DNA of 64,000 nucleotides. Origin: Pedobacter sp. SYSU D00535. Lineage in GTDB: Bacteria > Bacteroidota > Bacteroidia > Sphingobacteriales > Sphingobacteriaceae. Location of the stretch: contig NZ_JAFEWD010000008.1 in the NCBI RefSeq assembly GCF_017355855.1, positions 62,001-126,000 on the forward strand, read 5' to 3'. A program made the position numbers and the translations under genes. A model generated the notes under the pieces. The model ran no database searches, had not been told where the DNA came from, and saw nothing but the letters and a program-made list of their open reading frames with translations. Every line of letters begins with the position of its first letter. Positions within the stretch are counted from its first letter, which is position 1. Shown piece by piece: positions 56,414-64,000 of the stretch.

Positions 56414-57502
56414 CTACAGATAGCTATTTTGTCTTAAGTAGTGGTCGGCGATAACGAGCGCAGCCATCGCTTCAACGATTGCGACCGCGCGGGGCACCAC
56501 ACATGGATCATGGCGTCCTTTTCCTTTGATCTCGGCAGCGTTCCCCTCTTTGTCTACCGTCTGCTGGTTATGCATCACTGTAGCTACAGGTTTAAATGCA
56601 ACTCTGAAAGATATGTCCATGCCGTTAGAAATTCCCCCCTGGATTCCTCCCGAGAAGTTGGTGAGGGTAGTTACTTTGCCGTCCGCGGCAGGCTGGAAGA
56701 TGTCATTATGTTCCGTTCCCCGCATTTCTGAACCAGCAAATCCGGAGCCGTATTCAAATCCATGTACTGCGTTGATGCTCAGCATCGCTTTGCCCAGGTC
56801 AGCGTGTAGTTTGTCGAAAACTGGTTCACCTAAACCTACCGGGCAATTTCGGATAATACAGCTTACCTTTCCGCCAACAGTATCACCAGCTTTACGAACA
56901 GCGTCAATAAATTCAATCATCTCGTTGGCTGTGGCCGGATCGGCGCACCTTGCAATATTGCTTTCGCGGATTTCCAAGAGCTGGTCCAAATGAGGAGCAT
57001 CGACGATCGGAGCGTCAATCGTTCCTACTGAAGAGACATGTGCAAAAACCTCTATTCCTTTTTGCTTCAAGAAGAGCTTTGCAACTGCTCCGGCTGCTAC
57101 GCGGGCAGCAGTCTCACGAGCGGAAGAACGTCCACCGCCGCGGTGGTCACGAATTCCGTATTTCGACTGATAGGTGTAGTCAGCATGTGATGGGCGGAAA
57201 ATATCTTTGTTATGATCGTAATCTTTTGATTTCTGATCTTCATTCGGGATAAGCAGTGCAATAGGAGTCCCGGTGCTTTTTCCTTCAAAAATCCCGGAAA
57301 GGATTTGAGCACTGTCGCTTTCCTTTCTCTGAGTAGTGATTTTCGATTGTCCCGGCTTACGTTTATCCAGTTCCGACTGAATAAATTCCATATCCAATTC
57401 CACATTTGGAGGGCAGCCATCAATAATCACCCCGATTGCTGTGCCATGTGATTCTCCGAAAGTCGTAATGCGGAATAGTTGTCCGAAAGAGTTACCTGCC
57501 AT
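56414..57502 (-). CDS. aroC: Chorismate synthase
   Basis: Last step of the shikimate pathway, using reduced [24 protein letters not shown] is the standard N-terminus, with FGESHG containing a catalytic His; [20 protein letters not shown] and RGTEHND-type segments are further signatures, and the C-terminal [17 protein letters not shown] is complete. The ATG at 57502 gives 362 residues and the usual MAGNSFG start; the longer reading from 57544 is less likely. It is the last gene of the attenuated aromatic operon. Confidence 0.96.
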
Positions 57503-57568
57503 TGTTTTGGTTTTAGAAGTTAAAGTTGAGAGCCGACTGGCCATCCAATCGAATCTCTCAACCTCAAA

Positions 57569-58825
57569 CTAAATTTCGAATCCTGCTTTTTTCAAATCTT
57601 CCCAGAAAGATGGATAGGATTTGCCTACCACCTCTGGTTCTTCAATTTCAAGCTGGTTTATTTTAAGAGCCAGAGGAGCAAAAGCCATTGCCATTCTGTG
57701 GTCTTCGTAGGTTCTGATAGTTATTTTATCAGGGAAGTGCAGATTGCTGCAGTCCAGATGGTAAAGCTCGTTGTCTTCTCTCAACACAATACCTATTTTA
57801 GCCAGCTCGTTCTGCAACGCTGCTACCCTGTCTGTTTCCTTGATCTTCAACGTTTCTAATCCTGTAAAGGTAGCATTGTGACCAAGGGCTGCACTAACAA
57901 CTATTACAGTCTGGGCTAAATCCGGGCAGTCTTTCAAGTCGAAAAAGCGACCCTGGAGTTCATTGCAGTTTTTTGTCAATTCGAGACCCGTTTCCGTGAA
58001 TTTGGTAACAATCCCAAAGCTCTCCATGATGCTGCTTATCCTGCTGTCACCCTGAAGGCTATTTTCCTTCAGAAAGGGAAGGGTGATGCTGCTTTCATCA
58101 GATAAGGCTGCAATGGCGTACCAGTAAGAAGCAGCGCTCCAATCCGGTTCAATTGTAATTGCAGAGTCTTTGAAAGGCTGAGGAGGAATAGAAATGGTGT
58201 TGCCATCCCATTTGTGGCTTACGCCAGCTTCTTCAAGCATCGCCAAGGTCATTTCCACATAAGGACGAGACGTTAAATCGCCAACGATATTTAAGTCGAG
58301 CCCCTGGGGAAGAGAAGCAGCAACCAACAGCAGGGCAGTGATAAACTGGGAGCTGATGTTGCCCTTAATATCTACCTGCTTGGTAGCTTGTTGGAAGTTT
58401 GATTGGAATTTCAAAGGGGGGTAGCCTTCCTTCTCTACATATTCAATTTCTGCTCCCAAAGTTCTCAGCGCATCTACCAGGATTCCGATGGGACGTTGTT
58501 TCATCCGCTCCGTTCCGGTAATGATCACTTCCTGGCCTGTAACAGCAAAATAGGCGGTAAGAAAACGCATGGCGGTCCCCGCAGGGCCGATGTTCACCAC
58601 CGGAGTTTCTGAAGTTTCAGAAGTCTTTCCGGTAGCCAGATTCCTAAGAATCCCGTCAAGCGTCACCGTATCATCAGCAGAGGAAAGGTTTCGAACTTCC
58701 ACCTTTCCGCTGCTTAATGCATTCAGTATCAAAGCCCTGTTACTCTCGCTTTTTGAACCCGTAAGCTGTATGGTACAAAAAGTCTGTTTAGAGGGCTTTG
58801 AGAGAATTAATTTATTTTCCGTCAT
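57569..58825 (-). CDS. aroA: 3-phosphoshikimate 1-carboxyvinyltransferase (EPSP synthase)
   Basis: Joins shikimate 3-phosphate and PEP. GSKSESNRALILNALS carries the conserved Lys/Ser/Arg of the shikimate site; NIGPAGTAMRFLTAYFA is the PEP-binding loop, in its class II-like divergent form seen in Bacteroidota; LKIKETDRVAALQNELAKIG is the C-terminal active-site helix. Length 418. It overlaps the DAHP synthase gene by 1 nt (TAATG) and lies 66 nt upstream of aroC. Confidence 0.95.
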   Translation of the reverse strand: MTENKLILSKPSKQTFCTIQLTGSKSESNRALILNALSSGKVEVRNLSSADDTVTLDGILRNLATGKTSETSETPVVNIGPAGTAMRFLTAYFAVTGQEVIITGTERMKQRPIGILVDALRTLGAEIEYVEKEGYPPLKFQSNFQQATKQVDIKGNISSQFITALLLVAASLPQGLDLNIVGDLTSRPYVEMTLAMLEEAGVSHKWDGNTISIPPQPFKDSAITIEPDWSAASYWYAIAALSDESSITLPFLKENSLQGDSRISSIMESFGIVTKFTETGLELTKNCNELQGRFFDLKDCPDLAQTVIVVSAALGHNATFTGLETLKIKETDRVAALQNELAKIGIVLREDNELYHLDCSNLHFPDKITIRTYEDHRMAMAFAPLALKINQLEIEEPEVVGKSYPSFWEDLKKAGFEI

Positions 58826-59925
58826 TATTCAACAACGGTTTTGTCGTTCATGATTGCAGTTTGCTTTTTAATTGACTCATCGTGAATCAACTCTAACAAC
58901 TTGGTGGTAAACTCCTCGTCTAAGTTTAAAGCTTTTGCAAAGTTTGCACGTTTAGTGATCAGTTCTTCCCAACGGTTAAGCTGTAGAATCGTGATGTCGT
59001 TATCTCTTTTGTATTCGCCGATCTTCTCAACAACCTTCATTCTTTCAGCAACTTTCTGGATCAGTTGGTCGTCGATTTTGTCAATTTGCTTACGCAGCTC
59101 AGCCAGTTTATCAGATACTGCAGGGTTTTGCGGTTCCTGGTGACGAACGGTTAAGTTGTCGATCAAGTCTGATAAGGCGGCAGGAGTCACTTGTTGTTTC
59201 GCATCGGTCCAGGCAACAGAAGGATCGATATGTGACTCGATCATTAGTCCGTCCATCTCTAAGTCTAATGCTTTTTGAGAGATGTAAGGGATCAGCTCGC
59301 GGTTACCACAAATGTGACTTGGATCGCAGATGATAGGTAATTCAGGGCAAAGAGTCATTAACTGAATAGTCAGTTCCCACATCGGCTCATTACGGAATGC
59401 TGATTTCTCGAAAGAAGAGAATCCACGGGAAATACCAGCAAGCTTAGTAATTCCAGCGCCATTAATCCGCTCTAAAGCACCAACCCATAAAGAAAGATCA
59501 GGATTTACCGGGTTCTTAACCATTACAGGGATATCCACGCCCTTAAGCGCATCTGCAATTTCCTGAACGGTGAACGGATTTACTGTTGAACGGGCACCCA
59601 CCCAAAGGATGTCAACGCCGGCAGCTAAAGCTTCTTCCACGTGTTTTGCGTTTGCAACCTCTACCGTAGTAGGTAATCCGGTTTCTTCTTTAGCACGCTT
59701 TAACCATTCTAAACCAATGCTTCCGATACCTTCAAATTCTCCCGGACGAGTACGAGGCTTCCAGATTCCTGCACGAAGTACAGAGATTTTTCCTGTTTTA
59801 GCTAAAAGGTGTGCCGTAGCTAAAAGCTGATCTTCAGTTTCAGCGCTGCAAGGTCCTGCAATTACCAATGGTTGCTTGTTCGGCATCCATGCGCTTAGTG
59901 GTTCTATGTTCAAATTCAGTTTCAT
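58825..59925 (-). CDS. Bifunctional DAHP synthase/chorismate mutase
   Basis: A fusion of the first shikimate-pathway enzyme (residues about 1-260) with an AroQ chorismate mutase (about 275-366). The DAHP synthase domain of the I-beta type has PLVIAGPCSAETEDQLLATA, VLRAGIWKPRTRPGEFEGIG and GNRELIPYISQKALDLEMDG-type blocks (ICDPSHICGNRELIPY). The mutase domain has LAELRKQIDKIDDQLIQKVA and KIGEYKRDN. The mutase domain also often serves as the feedback sensor in such fusions. It follows pheA after 33 nt. The usual names are aroF/aroG-aroQ; I leave the symbol blank. Confidence 0.94.
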   Translation of the reverse strand: MKLNLNIEPLSAWMPNKQPLVIAGPCSAETEDQLLATAHLLAKTGKISVLRAGIWKPRTRPGEFEGIGSIGLEWLKRAKEETGLPTTVEVANAKHVEEALAAGVDILWVGARSTVNPFTVQEIADALKGVDIPVMVKNPVNPDLSLWVGALERINGAGITKLAGISRGFSSFEKSAFRNEPMWELTIQLMTLCPELPIICDPSHICGNRELIPYISQKALDLEMDGLMIESHIDPSVAWTDAKQQVTPAALSDLIDNLTVRHQEPQNPAVSDKLAELRKQIDKIDDQLIQKVAERMKVVEKIGEYKRDNDITILQLNRWEELITKRANFAKALNLDEEFTTKLLELIHDESIKKQTAIMNDKTVVE

Positions 59926-59958: not shown

Positions 59959-60789
59959 CTATACTGTTTCGTTTTTAAGATATTCTCCCATGATCGTGAA
60001 GTTCACGGTATGCCGCAATACCTGACGGATTGCCTGCTCATACTTTTCTTTCGAGCCCCACTCGATATCCACATAAAAATTATATTGATTTCGCTTGCCC
60101 AACACAGGCATCGACTGGATTTTGCTGAGGTTGATTCCGTGCTCTGCAAATACGTTGAGCACTTTCGCCAAAGACCCCACATCGTCTGTCACCTGGAACG
60201 ATAAAGAAGCTTTATTGGCATTTGTTATGTGAATATCTTTATTATCTGTAAGGATAAGGAAACGGGTATAGTTCTTTTTGTTCGACTCTATCCTGCGCTC
60301 CATAATGTCTAACCCGTAAAGTTTAGCTGCTAACTTATTAGCAATTGCCGCTGTGTCCGTTAGTTGTTCATCGCGGATCTTCTTAGCGCAGGCAGCGGTA
60401 TCCGAACTTTCAACCACATTCAGGTGAGGAAATTCACTAAAAAAGTCATCACACTGGCGGATTGCAATCGGGTGTGATTCTACCCGTTTAATCTGCTCGA
60501 ACCTAACACCCGGGAGGGCTAACAAATTAAGTTGAATGTGAAGGTAAACTTCCCCGATAATTGAAAAGTGGTAGTCGCGGAGGAGTGAGTAGTTGGGTAA
60601 AAGACTACCGGCAATTGAGTTCTCAATAGCCATCACTACGAAGTCGGCTTCTTTGTTTTTCAAAACCTCGCAGGTTTTTTTGAAGGAGCTGCACTCGATT
60701 GTTTCGATGTCTTCCCCGAAAAACTTTAAAGCTGCTTCTTCATGAAACGATGCCTTAATTCCCTGTATGGCTACTCTTTTCTTCTCCAT
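59959..60789 (-). CDS. pheA: Prephenate dehydratase with ACT domain
   Basis: Turns prephenate into phenylpyruvate, the Phe branch. It has 276 residues: KASFHEEAALKFFG and FVVMAIENSIAGSLLPNYSL carry the catalytic domain, ERVESHPIAIRQCDDF-type block (KRVESHPIAIRQCDDFF) is the T-R-F region counterpart, and the NKKNYTRFLIL segment carries the family T-R-F motif. The ACT domain (SFQVTDDVGSLAKVLNVFAE) binds Phe for feedback inhibition. No mutase domain is attached; the mutase is on the next gene. It is the first gene after the aromatic attenuator. Confidence 0.95.
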   Translation of the reverse strand: MEKKRVAIQGIKASFHEEAALKFFGEDIETIECSSFKKTCEVLKNKEADFVVMAIENSIAGSLLPNYSLLRDYHFSIIGEVYLHIQLNLLALPGVRFEQIKRVESHPIAIRQCDDFFSEFPHLNVVESSDTAACAKKIRDEQLTDTAAIANKLAAKLYGLDIMERRIESNKKNYTRFLILTDNKDIHITNANKASLSFQVTDDVGSLAKVLNVFAEHGINLSKIQSMPVLGKRNQYNFYVDIEWGSKEKYEQAIRQVLRHTVNFTIMGEYLKNETV

Positions 60790-60794
60790 ATGCT

Positions 60795-60870
60795 AAAAAA
60801 AAAATCCCGGCTGTTTGGGCCGGGACTTTGTATATGAGTTCTTTTAGTCAAAACATATTAGTCCCGGCTC
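60795..60870 (-). promoter_or_regulatory. Attenuator: alternative antiterminator and terminator before pheA
   Basis: Minus strand. Terminator: stem TCCCGGC / GCCGGGA (60805-60811 with 60819-60825, plus-strand coordinates), 7-nt loop, then ten T residues (60795-60804). Antiterminator: the 9-nt GCCGGGACT (60860-60868) pairs with AGTCCCGGC (60819-60827), extendable by a wobble and a G-C pair, and so would sequester the 5' arm of the terminator. The upstream antiterminator arm begins directly after the leader peptide stop codon. A ribosome finishing the leader covers it, so the terminator forms; a ribosome stalled early at aromatic codons leaves it free and transcription continues. Confidence 0.88.
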
Positions 60871-60921
60871 TTACTGATAGTAGTAAAAGTAACCGAACCA
60901 ATATGTAGTGTTGTTTGTCAT
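60871..60921 (-). CDS. Aromatic amino acid leader peptide of the pheA operon
   Basis: A 16-codon ORF, ATG to TAA, coding MTNNTTYWFGYFYYYQ. Eight of nine residues from position 7 to 15 are aromatic (five Tyr, two Phe, one Trp), far above chance. It starts about 10 nt after a predicted transcription start and ends directly before the antiterminator arm, about 80 nt from pheA. Tyr codons dominate, so Tyr or general aromatic shortage should be sensed rather than Phe alone. It is expected to act in cis as a stalling sequence, and the peptide itself has no likely function. Confidence 0.9.
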   Translation of the reverse strand: MTNNTTYWFGYFYYYQ

Positions 60922-60936
60922 TCTTGTCTTGTCTGG

Positions 60937-60968
60937 CAAAAGTAAGTTTCTGGATTTGAAATGGCAAA
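60937..60968 (-). promoter_or_regulatory. Consensus Bacteroidota promoter of the pheA operon
   Basis: TTTG (60965-60968) and TACTTTTG (60937-60944), both exact on the minus strand, are 20 nt apart. This is the best match to the TTTG/TAnnTTTG promoter in the window and predicts a transcription start near 60930, just before the leader peptide. Confidence 0.8.
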
Positions 60969-61009: not shown

Positions 61010-62887
61010 TTAGTCCTTTGATTCTTTATCCTGCTTCTCTTTTTTACGTTGTTCCCGTTTTTCCTTGCGCTCTTGCTGTTTCGCTTCTTTCTTCTTTTGC
61101 TTGTCGGTATGATCTGGCCCTGAAATAGCGTTCCCGATTTTCAGCAGGATATTTTTGTCGGCACCTTTTCCGTCCTGGTAGACCCCCATCATCGCAGAAG
61201 ACATGCCGTCTACCGAAGCATCGAACAGAAATTTGAAAAATGACTGCCAGGGCTCCCGCTCTACATTTACCGGCCCTTTTTTAAATTCTCCATTTTTACG
61301 CGGATTATCATTGGGTGTGACCATGTTTGATACAAAGGAAAGAAAGCCTTTCCGATCGAGGGTGTCTGTGTCTTTATCTCTTTCCAAAAAGGCAATCTTC
61401 ATACCCGAGTAGTACATGTTAACGTTGCCTGTTCCCCGGTATTCGTTCATCTTCAGGTGAGCTTCCATTTTGTTTAGTCTTCCTTCCTTGACCTCAATCA
61501 GTCCCAGAGGCTTGGACACCGGATTAAATGCGCGGGCATCCATTGGCCCAAGTGCTGAGTAGACGGTATACGAGCCGGCTTTGTCGAGCAGGTTGAAGGT
61601 GTACCAGGTTTTGAGTAGACCGGCGTTCATGACCCGGCTACGGCTAAAGACTTCTACTTGTGGCTTTCTTTTTTTCTGAGCTTCATTGTTAGTAAGGTTA
61701 GCTATTTCAGTACGGGTGTCTATGAACGACAGGGTAGAAACTTTGTCCGATTTGTCGGCCAGGATCCGGTAATAGATATTGCTGTTAAGGATGCTGATTC
61801 TTTTGAAGGTTAGATCAAAGGCGATTGTCTGATAACGTTCCTGGGGATAGGCATTCCGGCGATTCTCTTTTTTCAGCGGATAGTTATAGTTGGAGTAAAT
61901 CTCGACCCAGGCGTTTGAAACATACTTATGATCAACGAAAAGCTGCTGGGTGCGGATAAATTGATCCACATCGATACCCTCGAACCTAATTTTATCGAAT
62001 TTCCAATGATAGCGGTCTTTAGCGAAACCGGCTATTTTATGAAAGCGTTCTTTGCTGTATCGCGGTATTACAGCGGCCTGAGCAATGGTAAGCGTTTTCT
62101 TCGCAGGTAATAATTCCATGTCCCTGGCCACAATGTGGTAGTACTTGTCCGCGCTGGTCATTCGGAAGTAGCCTACTTTCAAATTGGTTCTGCTTTTATC
62201 GCTGGTGCTCTTTACGGGACTGCTGGTAAAATCCTTAATGAGGATATCGATGTTTCGCAGATGGTCGAACTTGTTCCTGTTTTTATTCACATAGCGGAAA
62301 TCAAGGTTGTGTACTTCCATCGTTTTCACATGCATCCTGCTGAACAGGGATTTGAAGGATTTGTACAGCAAAGAGGGGTCGGAAGGACGGTTGTTATTAG
62401 GGCGGAGCTTGTTGGTAATGTGTACTTTCGGACTAAGAACTGAGACTTTTCCCACTCCGAAGCGACGTCCCTCAGGCGTTTTTGTAAACCCAAAATCACT
62501 CATCACCATTTTTTCCACCCTGATATCTGCTACGTTATTGGGTGCTTTGTTGTTAGCAATAAGCTTTTGAAGAACGCGGTTATCGGCAGTCAAGCGCAGA
62601 TTGCTGATGGTGGCATAACCAGAATCAATGTCAATGTTGATGTCTGAGTAGGCAAAGTGATAAAGGCTGTCGCTTGCTTCCACGATCATGTCTTTTATTT
62701 TGTCTTCCAGTTTTGCTTTCAAGATCGGTTTGACCTTAGACGGCCGCGGCTTGCCTGTTTTTTTTGATATAGGTTCTGAAAGATCCCGCTTCAAAAAATA
62801 AAAGGCAGCAATGGCAATAAGCAGGATGGTAACAAGAGCGGCAATTATCCAGGCAGCAATGCGATAGCCTGTTCTTCTTTGTTTCAT
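61010..62887 (-). CDS. AsmA/DUF748-like single-span membrane protein
   Basis: A 625-residue protein with one N-terminal membrane helix (about 9-30, IAAWIIAALVTILLIAIAAF) and a long periplasmic beta-rich part with repeated short strands (ISNLRLTADN, IRVEKMVMSD, VGKVSVLSPKVHITN, MEVHNLDFRYV), the pattern of AsmA-like lipid-transfer proteins. The last 40 residues are an unusually charged Lys/Glu/Gln-rich tail (KQKKKEAKQQERKEKREQ) that is probably a helix. I infer the AsmA-like fold; a function in envelope lipid transport is only possible. It lies between the aromatic operon promoter and aroB. Confidence 0.7.
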   Translation of the reverse strand: MKQRRTGYRIAAWIIAALVTILLIAIAAFYFLKRDLSEPISKKTGKPRPSKVKPILKAKLEDKIKDMIVEASDSLYHFAYSDINIDIDSGYATISNLRLTADNRVLQKLIANNKAPNNVADIRVEKMVMSDFGFTKTPEGRRFGVGKVSVLSPKVHITNKLRPNNNRPSDPSLLYKSFKSLFSRMHVKTMEVHNLDFRYVNKNRNKFDHLRNIDILIKDFTSSPVKSTSDKSRTNLKVGYFRMTSADKYYHIVARDMELLPAKKTLTIAQAAVIPRYSKERFHKIAGFAKDRYHWKFDKIRFEGIDVDQFIRTQQLFVDHKYVSNAWVEIYSNYNYPLKKENRRNAYPQERYQTIAFDLTFKRISILNSNIYYRILADKSDKVSTLSFIDTRTEIANLTNNEAQKKRKPQVEVFSRSRVMNAGLLKTWYTFNLLDKAGSYTVYSALGPMDARAFNPVSKPLGLIEVKEGRLNKMEAHLKMNEYRGTGNVNMYYSGMKIAFLERDKDTDTLDRKGFLSFVSNMVTPNDNPRKNGEFKKGPVNVEREPWQSFFKFLFDASVDGMSSAMMGVYQDGKGADKNILLKIGNAISGPDHTDKQKKKEAKQQERKEKREQRKKEKQDKESKD

Positions 62888-63149: not shown

Positions 63150-64000
63150 TTACCCTTTTACGATGCTGTTGTAAAAGTCGAGACTTTCCAGAATCTTGTC
63201 TTCCTCCAGGTAGTTGTTATAGTCGCATTCGCCCAGTCTTTTTAAGAGTGCGAAGCCGATTTTTCCTGAGGTGTTCTTTTTGTCATTCTTCATGAAATCG
63301 ATCAGGTCCGGATAATTTTCCAGCGGAATTTCGTAATCAGGGAAGACTGCCCGGACTAGCAGTATCAGTTCGTCCAGTTCATCCTGACTGAGGGTGTTGT
63401 ATTTATGCGAAAGATAGGCTTCACAGATCATGCCGACCGCAATAGCCTCACCGTGCAGCAAGGAATTTTTATCGTTTTGAAGCGAGTAGCTTTCTACGGC
63501 GTGACCAATTGTATGCCCGAAGTTTAAAGTCTTACGCAGCCCTTTTTCAAAGGGGTCCGTCGTCACCACGTGGTTTTTGATCTCAACGGAACGATAGATG
63601 ATTTCAGGAGCAACGCTTAACGGCGAAACGCTTTTTAATTTTTCAAGATATTCCTTGTCGGCGATAAAGCCGTGTTTGATAATTTCAGCAAAGCCCGAGA
63701 TCAGCTGGCGATTATCCAGGGATTGCAGGAATTCAGTGGAGATGAAGACGGCTTTTGGTTGCGCGAAGGTTCCCACGATGTTTTTCACGCTACCCAGGTC
63801 AATACCAGTTTTTCCTCCCACCGAGGCATCCACCTGCGACAACAGTGTGGTAGGAATCTGCACGAAATCTATTCCCCTTTTGAAAGTGGAGGCCGCGAAT
63901 CCGCCCAGATCGGTAATAACACCACCACCCAGGTTGATCATCAAACTGTTGCGATCTGCCCCGAAATCCAACAGGTTGTGCCATACCCCGATGCAGTAAT
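63150..64000 (-). CDS. aroB: 3-dehydroquinate synthase, partial (N-terminus outside window)
   Basis: Closes the DAHP chain into dehydroquinate with NAD and zinc. The frame runs on past the window end, reading YCIGVWHNLLDFGADRN at the edge. NLGGGVITDLGGFAASTFKRG is the NAD-binding glycine motif, PTTLLSQVDASVGGKTGID the substrate and metal region, SGFAEIIKHGF and LNFGHTIGHAVE the zinc ligands (Glu and His). About 284 of the usual 350 residues are in the window. aroB is not in the attenuated operon, being separated from it by the AsmA-like gene. Confidence 0.95.
   Translation of the reverse strand, partial: YCIGVWHNLLDFGADRNSLMINLGGGVITDLGGFAASTFKRGIDFVQIPTTLLSQVDASVGGKTGIDLGSVKNIVGTFAQPKAVFISTEFLQSLDNRQLISGFAEIIKHGFIADKEYLEKLKSVSPLSVAPEIIYRSVEIKNHVVTTDPFEKGLRKTLNFGHTIGHAVESYSLQNDKNSLLHGEAIAVGMICEAYLSHKYNTLSQDELDELILLVRAVFPDYEIPLENYPDLIDFMKNDKKNTSGKIGFALLKRLGECDYNNYLEEDKILESLDFYNSIVKG

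Follow-up and report, generated by a model that had tools for sequence, protein, structure and literature searches.

In the window, the 64,000-nucleotide stretch of the genome of the soil bacterium Pedobacter sp. SYSU D00535 that was analysed, the genes for a DAHP synthase-chorismate mutase fusion, aroA, and aroC lie downstream of the prephenate dehydratase gene pheA, in this order and on its strand (Table 1). From their spacing and shared strand, we infer that the four genes form one operon. The gene after pheA encodes DAHP synthase, the entry enzyme of the entire aromatic pathway, in each of the 14 relatives listed. On the other side of pheA, a minus-strand gene for a 625-residue protein (61010-62887), for which there was no Pfam match, is positioned upstream of the regulatory region, between pheA and an aroB-like 3-dehydroquinate synthase gene (63150-63971).

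The interval 60795-60968 was originally predicted to carry a promoter, a leader peptide rich in aromatic residues, an antiterminator arm, and a terminator. Each of these elements can be read directly from the minus strand at the predicted position. The spacer between TTTG (60968-60965) and TACTTTTG (60944-60937) of the putative promoter is 20 nt. Transcription is predicted to start at approximately 60932, resulting in a leader 5' untranslated region of about 11 nt; PMC9723704 gives the position of the promoter box as -12 to -5. The leader open reading frame begins with the ATG at 60921 and ends with a TAA stop codon (60873-60871). Eight of the nine residues in its segment YWFGYFYYY are aromatic, and the corresponding regulatory codons are TAT TGG TTC. 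TAC TTT TAC TAC TAT. Three complementary GC-rich arms lie between the leader and the U tract, and both the sequence and the predicted fold show an intrinsic terminator downstream of the leader and ahead of pheA, the first structural gene. The 3' arm of the terminator, GCCGGGA, occupies positions 60811-60805, and a gap of 5 nt separates the U tract from the ATG of pheA at 60789.

Table 1. Features of the pheA regulatory region and of the genes downstream of it
Feature	Position	Strand	Basis and remarks
-33 element TTTG	60965..60968	-	Putative Bacteroidota-type promoter; sequence, consensus according to PMC7366714
-7 element TACTTTTG (TAnnTTTG)	60937..60944	-	Sequence
Leader peptide ORF MTNNTTYWFGYFYYYQ*, 16 codons	60871..60921	-	Sequence and family conservation
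Protector (1:2) hairpin, formed by leader codons with segment 2 and the adjoining TAATATG	60853..60906	-	Minimum-energy fold
Segment 2 GCCGGGACT, 5' arm of the antiterminator	60860..60868	-	Sequence, covariation; 2 nt past the leader stop
Segment 3 AGTCCCGGC, common to antiterminator and terminator	60819..60827	-	Sequence, covariation
Intrinsic terminator hairpin (3:4)	60801..60829	-	Fold, covariation
Terminator U tract, ten T	60795..60804	-	Sequence; T invariant at several columns in 88 relatives
pheA, prephenate dehydratase with ACT domain	59959..60789	-	Pfam PDT 3.3e-57, ACT 4.3e-08
DAHP synthase-chorismate mutase fusion	58825..59925	-	Pfam DAHP_synth_1, CM_2
aroA, EPSP synthase	57569..58825	-	One-base overlap with the preceding gene
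aroC, chorismate synthase	56414..57544	-	Same strand

The 136-nt leader RNA has a predicted folding energy of -39.8 kcal/mol (z = -6.1), and none of 200 shuffled sequences was equally stable. In a third, competing hairpin of the minimum-energy fold, absent from the original prediction, segment 2 and the adjoining downstream TAATATG are paired with the leader codons ACATATTGGTTCGG...; it is the protector (1:2) hairpin of classical attenuators. A covariance model of the element, when run against the whole genome, had its best match at the pheA site (E 6e-20), and a plasmid search gave no match. The next-best genomic match (E 0.0017), considered as a possible second copy, proved to be a normal terminator located after a gene that resembles those for ribosomal proteins. 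No Rfam family reached its gathering threshold anywhere in the window.

It could be argued that the terminator is constitutive, that the short open reading frame in front of it arose by chance, and that pheA is transcribed from another promoter further downstream, since AT-rich intergenic DNA favours Phe and Tyr codons. Against this, a short open reading frame with eight aromatic residues of nine was never reached in 6300 dinucleotide-shuffled pheA upstream regions, seven of nine were reached in 0.1%, and six or more in 0.7%. The conservation of the leader, the covariation of the arms, and the TAnnTTTG box ahead of the leader in relatives, all described below, also speak against this explanation, which we regard as extremely improbable.

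The pheA gene was found in 135 of the 151 genomes of the same family, Sphingobacteriaceae, and for 90 of these, which represent most genera, the sequence upstream of the gene was compared. As had been anticipated for a genuine attenuator, the aromatic leader is kept at all 90 loci. The best nine-residue stretch contains six aromatic residues in one leader, seven in 48, and eight in 41, with means of 4.3 Tyr and 3.3 Phe codons per leader. Trp codons are present in only 28 of the 90 leaders, and Trp sensing is therefore not general. A strict TAnnTTTG box lies no more than 45 nt upstream of the leader in 75 of the 90 relatives, compared with 26 of 1530 background windows. The context of the leader start is A-rich, and Shine-Dalgarno-like motifs are absent in 88 of the 90 loci. 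Such a start is in line with initiation in Bacteroidetes, where an A at position -3 is a positive determinant (PMC6847099).

The same three arms occur across the 88 same-family loci that were aligned, and the covariance model has matches in all 151 genomes of the order sample. The genome G005 has only weak matches (best E 6e-5) and no pheA match, which indicates that a model match alone is no proof of the element. The nearest named PheA proteins are those of Desertivirga xinjiangensis (87%) and D. arenae (83%), followed among named isolates by Paradesertivirga and Arcticibacter, which marks the source of the window as a Desertivirga species or a close relative. One pheA locus (L139), 79% identical to the present Sphingobacteriaceae PheA, comes from a record titled as a Legionellaceae metagenome-assembled genome, a bin that has probably been mislabelled or contaminated.

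The alternative pairings carry the compensatory changes that the original prediction had called for in related genomes. In the alignment of 88 sequences, 96.1% of the cells of the terminator helix are paired and double changes occur in 7 of its 11 pairs; the corresponding values are 90.6% and 5 of 9 pairs for the antiterminator, and 92.5% and 9 of 17 pairs for the protector. The proposal that segment 3 (60827-60819) is shared by two mutually exclusive hairpins is supported by covariation in both of them. Kinship among the sequences can inflate the comparison with shuffled alignments, in which covariation was 0.239 versus 0.109 for the terminator, 0.148 versus 0.093 for the antiterminator, and 0.233 versus 0.182 for the protector, with none of 500 shuffles as high in each case, yet slid versions of all three helices score much lower (at most 0.089 for the terminator). 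With RNAalifold alone, the terminator and an apical portion of the protector were the only structures recovered, and pairs were therefore counted on the named structures.

The protector also imposes constraints on the leader codons. The wobble position of a Tyr codon pairs with a base before segment 2 as C-G in 67 sequences and as U-A in 18, so that the change of Tyr TAC to TAT is matched by a change of GTA to ATA in the protector. When the codons were randomised synonymously with the peptide fixed, the real codons were found to stabilise the protector, with a mean z of -1.7 and 70 of the 88 sequences below -1. This codon choice in favour of a stable protector indicates a constraint on the RNA in addition to that on the peptide. 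In one genus (g21, probably Daejeonella), the otherwise conserved leader Gly codon GGT is replaced by the Ala codon GCT where AGCC of segment 2 has become AGCG, as if the residue were set by the RNA pairing and not by the peptide. The inner protector helix of this genus has apparently undergone a one-base register shift, which the column counts score as a mismatch.

The positions of a translating ribosome relative to the hairpins were modelled in silico with a footprint that extends 13 nt beyond the first nucleotide of the A-site codon. In all 88 sequences, roughly half of segment 2 or more lies under a ribosome positioned at the stop codon, and at least three aromatic codons per leader can stall the ribosome without segment 2 being covered. 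The antiterminator is predicted to form upon such a stall in 85 of the 88 sequences, and the terminator in all 88 when segment 2 is covered or the ribosome is absent. The leader open reading frame extends into or past segment 2 in 70 sequences and stops just before it in 18, including the one in the window; in the model, both leader lengths would place the finishing ribosome on segment 2. The protector forms in 88 of 88 sequences when the RNA ends just past segment 2. The equilibrium fold of naked RNA ending at segment 3 is the antiterminator in 75 of the 88 sequences, and termination in the absence of translation would thus rely on the protector folding first.

The elements themselves were observed, as were their conservation, their covariation, and their geometry, and from these we propose a model for the use of the promoter, translation of the leader, ribosome stalling, transcription termination, and the amino acid response. 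A ribosome would load onto the leader from the short A-rich 5' untranslated region without a Shine-Dalgarno sequence. When aromatic aminoacyl-tRNAs are plentiful, the ribosome would proceed to the stop codon and cover segment 2, leading to 3:4 pairing and the arrest of transcription at the U tract. When charged tRNAs are scarce, the ribosome may stall on the Tyr, Trp, or Phe codons, break the protector, and release segment 2 for pairing with segment 3, and the polymerase would continue into pheA. In the absence of leader translation, the protector is expected to form and to favour termination. The locus is very probably a classical ribosome-mediated transcription attenuator that detects the charging state of tRNA-Tyr, tRNA-Phe, and, in this organism, tRNA-Trp, and that controls pheA together with the downstream shikimate genes. 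The conserved leader and the alternative pairings with their compensatory changes support the attenuator reading of the original prediction; the close coupling of transcription and translation that it implied is deduced from the architecture, as is the transcription start.

The end of the terminator lies mostly 4-18 nt from pheA in the relatives, and part of the effect could therefore be exerted on the translation of pheA. In most relatives, this distance puts the 3:4 hairpin close enough to the pheA start to fall under the footprint of a ribosome positioned there, as would be expected if the hairpin acted mainly by blocking ribosome access to that start and not by stopping transcription. Such translational attenuation is nevertheless very unlikely as the main mode of action, because the two hallmarks of an intrinsic terminator, a U tract and a GC-rich stem, are conserved in 88 of 88 aligned relatives, and in several relatives the hairpin is 33-55 nt from pheA, too far to block its start (starts were assigned by a simple rule).

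Leaders with other codons precede further amino acid operons of the same genome. The trpE leader MLDSLHTKIWWWQATACAG (C17 near 44917, minus strand) contains three tandem Trp codons and is followed by GCCCGACG..CGTCGGGTTTTTT ahead of trpE and by a GC-rich hairpin with a T run, which makes it a candidate for a second attenuator in the genome. The thrA leader MKKFTYIITTLTTGTQGQGGSTYMV, with Thr and Ile codons (locus L215, C1:113900-115300, minus strand), is followed by a strong terminator composed of a GC-rich hairpin and a T run. A Flavo-1 RNA (RF01705, 50 bits, above threshold) is located just upstream at the same locus (L215:982-1066, minus strand). The ilvD leader, which ends in ...RVLVVLLLNCMSKAY / VLVVLLLNCMSKAY with Val and Leu codons (C8 near 48066, minus strand), also precedes a GC-rich hairpin and a T run and is a candidate branched-chain attenuator. 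Upstream of hisG (C12 near 370729, minus strand), there is a His-rich short open reading frame, MILVFTHHMHAHHRHCGDR, behind which no clear terminator with a T run was found. In another genus of the family (g13, L109-L112), the pheA covariance model finds thrA leaders, for example MNFNTSIITTIIITTGINQRG, with E-values down to 1.7e-8.

These operon-specific cognate codons are best accounted for by ribosome-mediated attenuation and are hard to explain otherwise. They bear on the proposal that attenuation of pheA lies with an RNA-binding protein or with direct sensing of a small molecule and that the aromatic open reading frame is incidental. Aromatic genes are governed elsewhere by TRAP and the T-box, which are known from Gram-positive bacteria. 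At the pheA locus, however, the aromatic codons are kept in 90 of 90 relatives, the distance to segment 2 is tuned to the ribosome, and the leaders of other operons bear their own cognate codons. No Rfam family reached the gathering score in the window, and no T-box was listed at the locus even at E 10. We consider control by such a protein or sensor highly improbable.

Outside the family, pheA leaders with six or more aromatic residues of nine were found in six families, in 6 of 6 loci of f2, 13 of 13 of f4, 5 of 5 of f5, 3 of 5 of f8, 2 of 2 of f9, and 2 of 2 of f11 (family codes are anonymous), but the covariance model served to choose some of the f2, f4, and f8 loci, so that the fractions there are not unbiased. 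A terminator and a pairing antiterminator (p < 0.05) are present in 24 of the 31 leader-bearing loci of these families. A class sample adds leaders in f51, f62, f78, f98, and two more f4 genomes, and isolated pheA leaders occur in f16 and f19. Leaders at pheA were absent from f3, f10, f61, and most sampled families of other classes; 103 of the 139 genomes of the class sample lack a prephenate dehydratase match at E 1e-10, so that absence elsewhere is known from a sample only. In the two leaderless f8 genomes, pheA is directly downstream of aroA and is therefore not the first gene, which agrees with the attenuator reading. The 20 stronger model matches inspected across the phylum are all pheA or thrA leaders except for two (L124 and L127). 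Weak phylum-wide matches (E about 1e-3) were treated as ordinary terminators and left uncounted.

We consider it likely, with less assurance than for the pheA locus itself, that leader-peptide attenuation is a general and ancient mode of control of amino acid operons in Bacteroidia, operating from very short 5' untranslated regions that lack Shine-Dalgarno sequences, and that the pheA element serves as an aromatic sensor for the whole pathway and not as a sensor of Phe alone. The mixture of Tyr and Phe codons in the leader fits the control of DAHP synthase, the pathway entry enzyme. If this is true, separate leaders would read Tyr and Phe at pheA-DAHP synthase, Trp, Thr and Ile, and Val and Leu, and attenuation across Bacteroidia would need close transcription-translation coupling at transcript starts in the phylum. 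The design demands fast ribosome loading without Shine-Dalgarno sequences and ribosomes that stay close behind the RNA polymerase; direct evidence for either in Bacteroidia was not found in the literature searched. What began as a single sighting becomes a class-wide, testable regulatory element without an Rfam model of its own. With the covariance model and the alignment of leaders, pheA operons of Sphingobacteriaceae can be annotated and related elements recognised in sister families.

The regulatory codons of pheL, the leader of the pheA attenuator of E. coli and Salmonella, are for Phe only, whereas the element described here has mixed Tyr, Phe, and Trp codons, lacks a Shine-Dalgarno sequence, and is followed, after pheA, by the gene for DAHP synthase-chorismate mutase. 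The two systems share the leader peptide, the 1:2, 2:3, and 3:4 hairpins, and prephenate dehydratase as the target. The Phe_leader model (RF01859) aligns over its full length (positions 1-125) at the locus with 28.8 bits, below its gathering threshold of 55 bits. The thrL and ilv/leu leaders of E. coli likewise sense several amino acids, but different ones, and E. coli-like Thr/Ile leaders are present at thrA in the genome studied here and in its relatives. Bacteroid-trp RNA (RF01692, PMC2864571) is a cis-regulatory candidate of Bacteroidetes linked to trp by name, and it had no match at the pheA locus, even at E 10.

Within the phylum, short open reading frames reminiscent of attenuation leaders were described in B. 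thetaiotaomicron (PMC7366714). PMC9723704 reports leader-peptide attenuation upstream of amino acid operons in Flavobacterium psychrophilum, together with a structured 5' element of pheA that is conserved in Flavobacteriaceae and has no Rfam match. This element belongs to the same phylum, gene, and proposed mechanism as the one in the window, and the two are probably homologous, since the model and a scan for open reading frames find such leaders at pheA in the Flavobacteriaceae-like family f4. For pheA, neither a leader sequence nor alternative pairing or covariation is given in the text of that paper. The Bacteroidota attenuation literature searched held no pheA alternative structures, covariation, codon constraint, or class-wide spread; the survey of Lopatovskaya et al. 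2010 may list Bacteroidetes cases. The original prediction was right in seeing a clear case in Bacteroidota, but the kind of mechanism is not new to the phylum, as it was already reported for Flavobacterium (PMC9723704). The kind of system is known, and the pheA element described here is a well-supported case of it.
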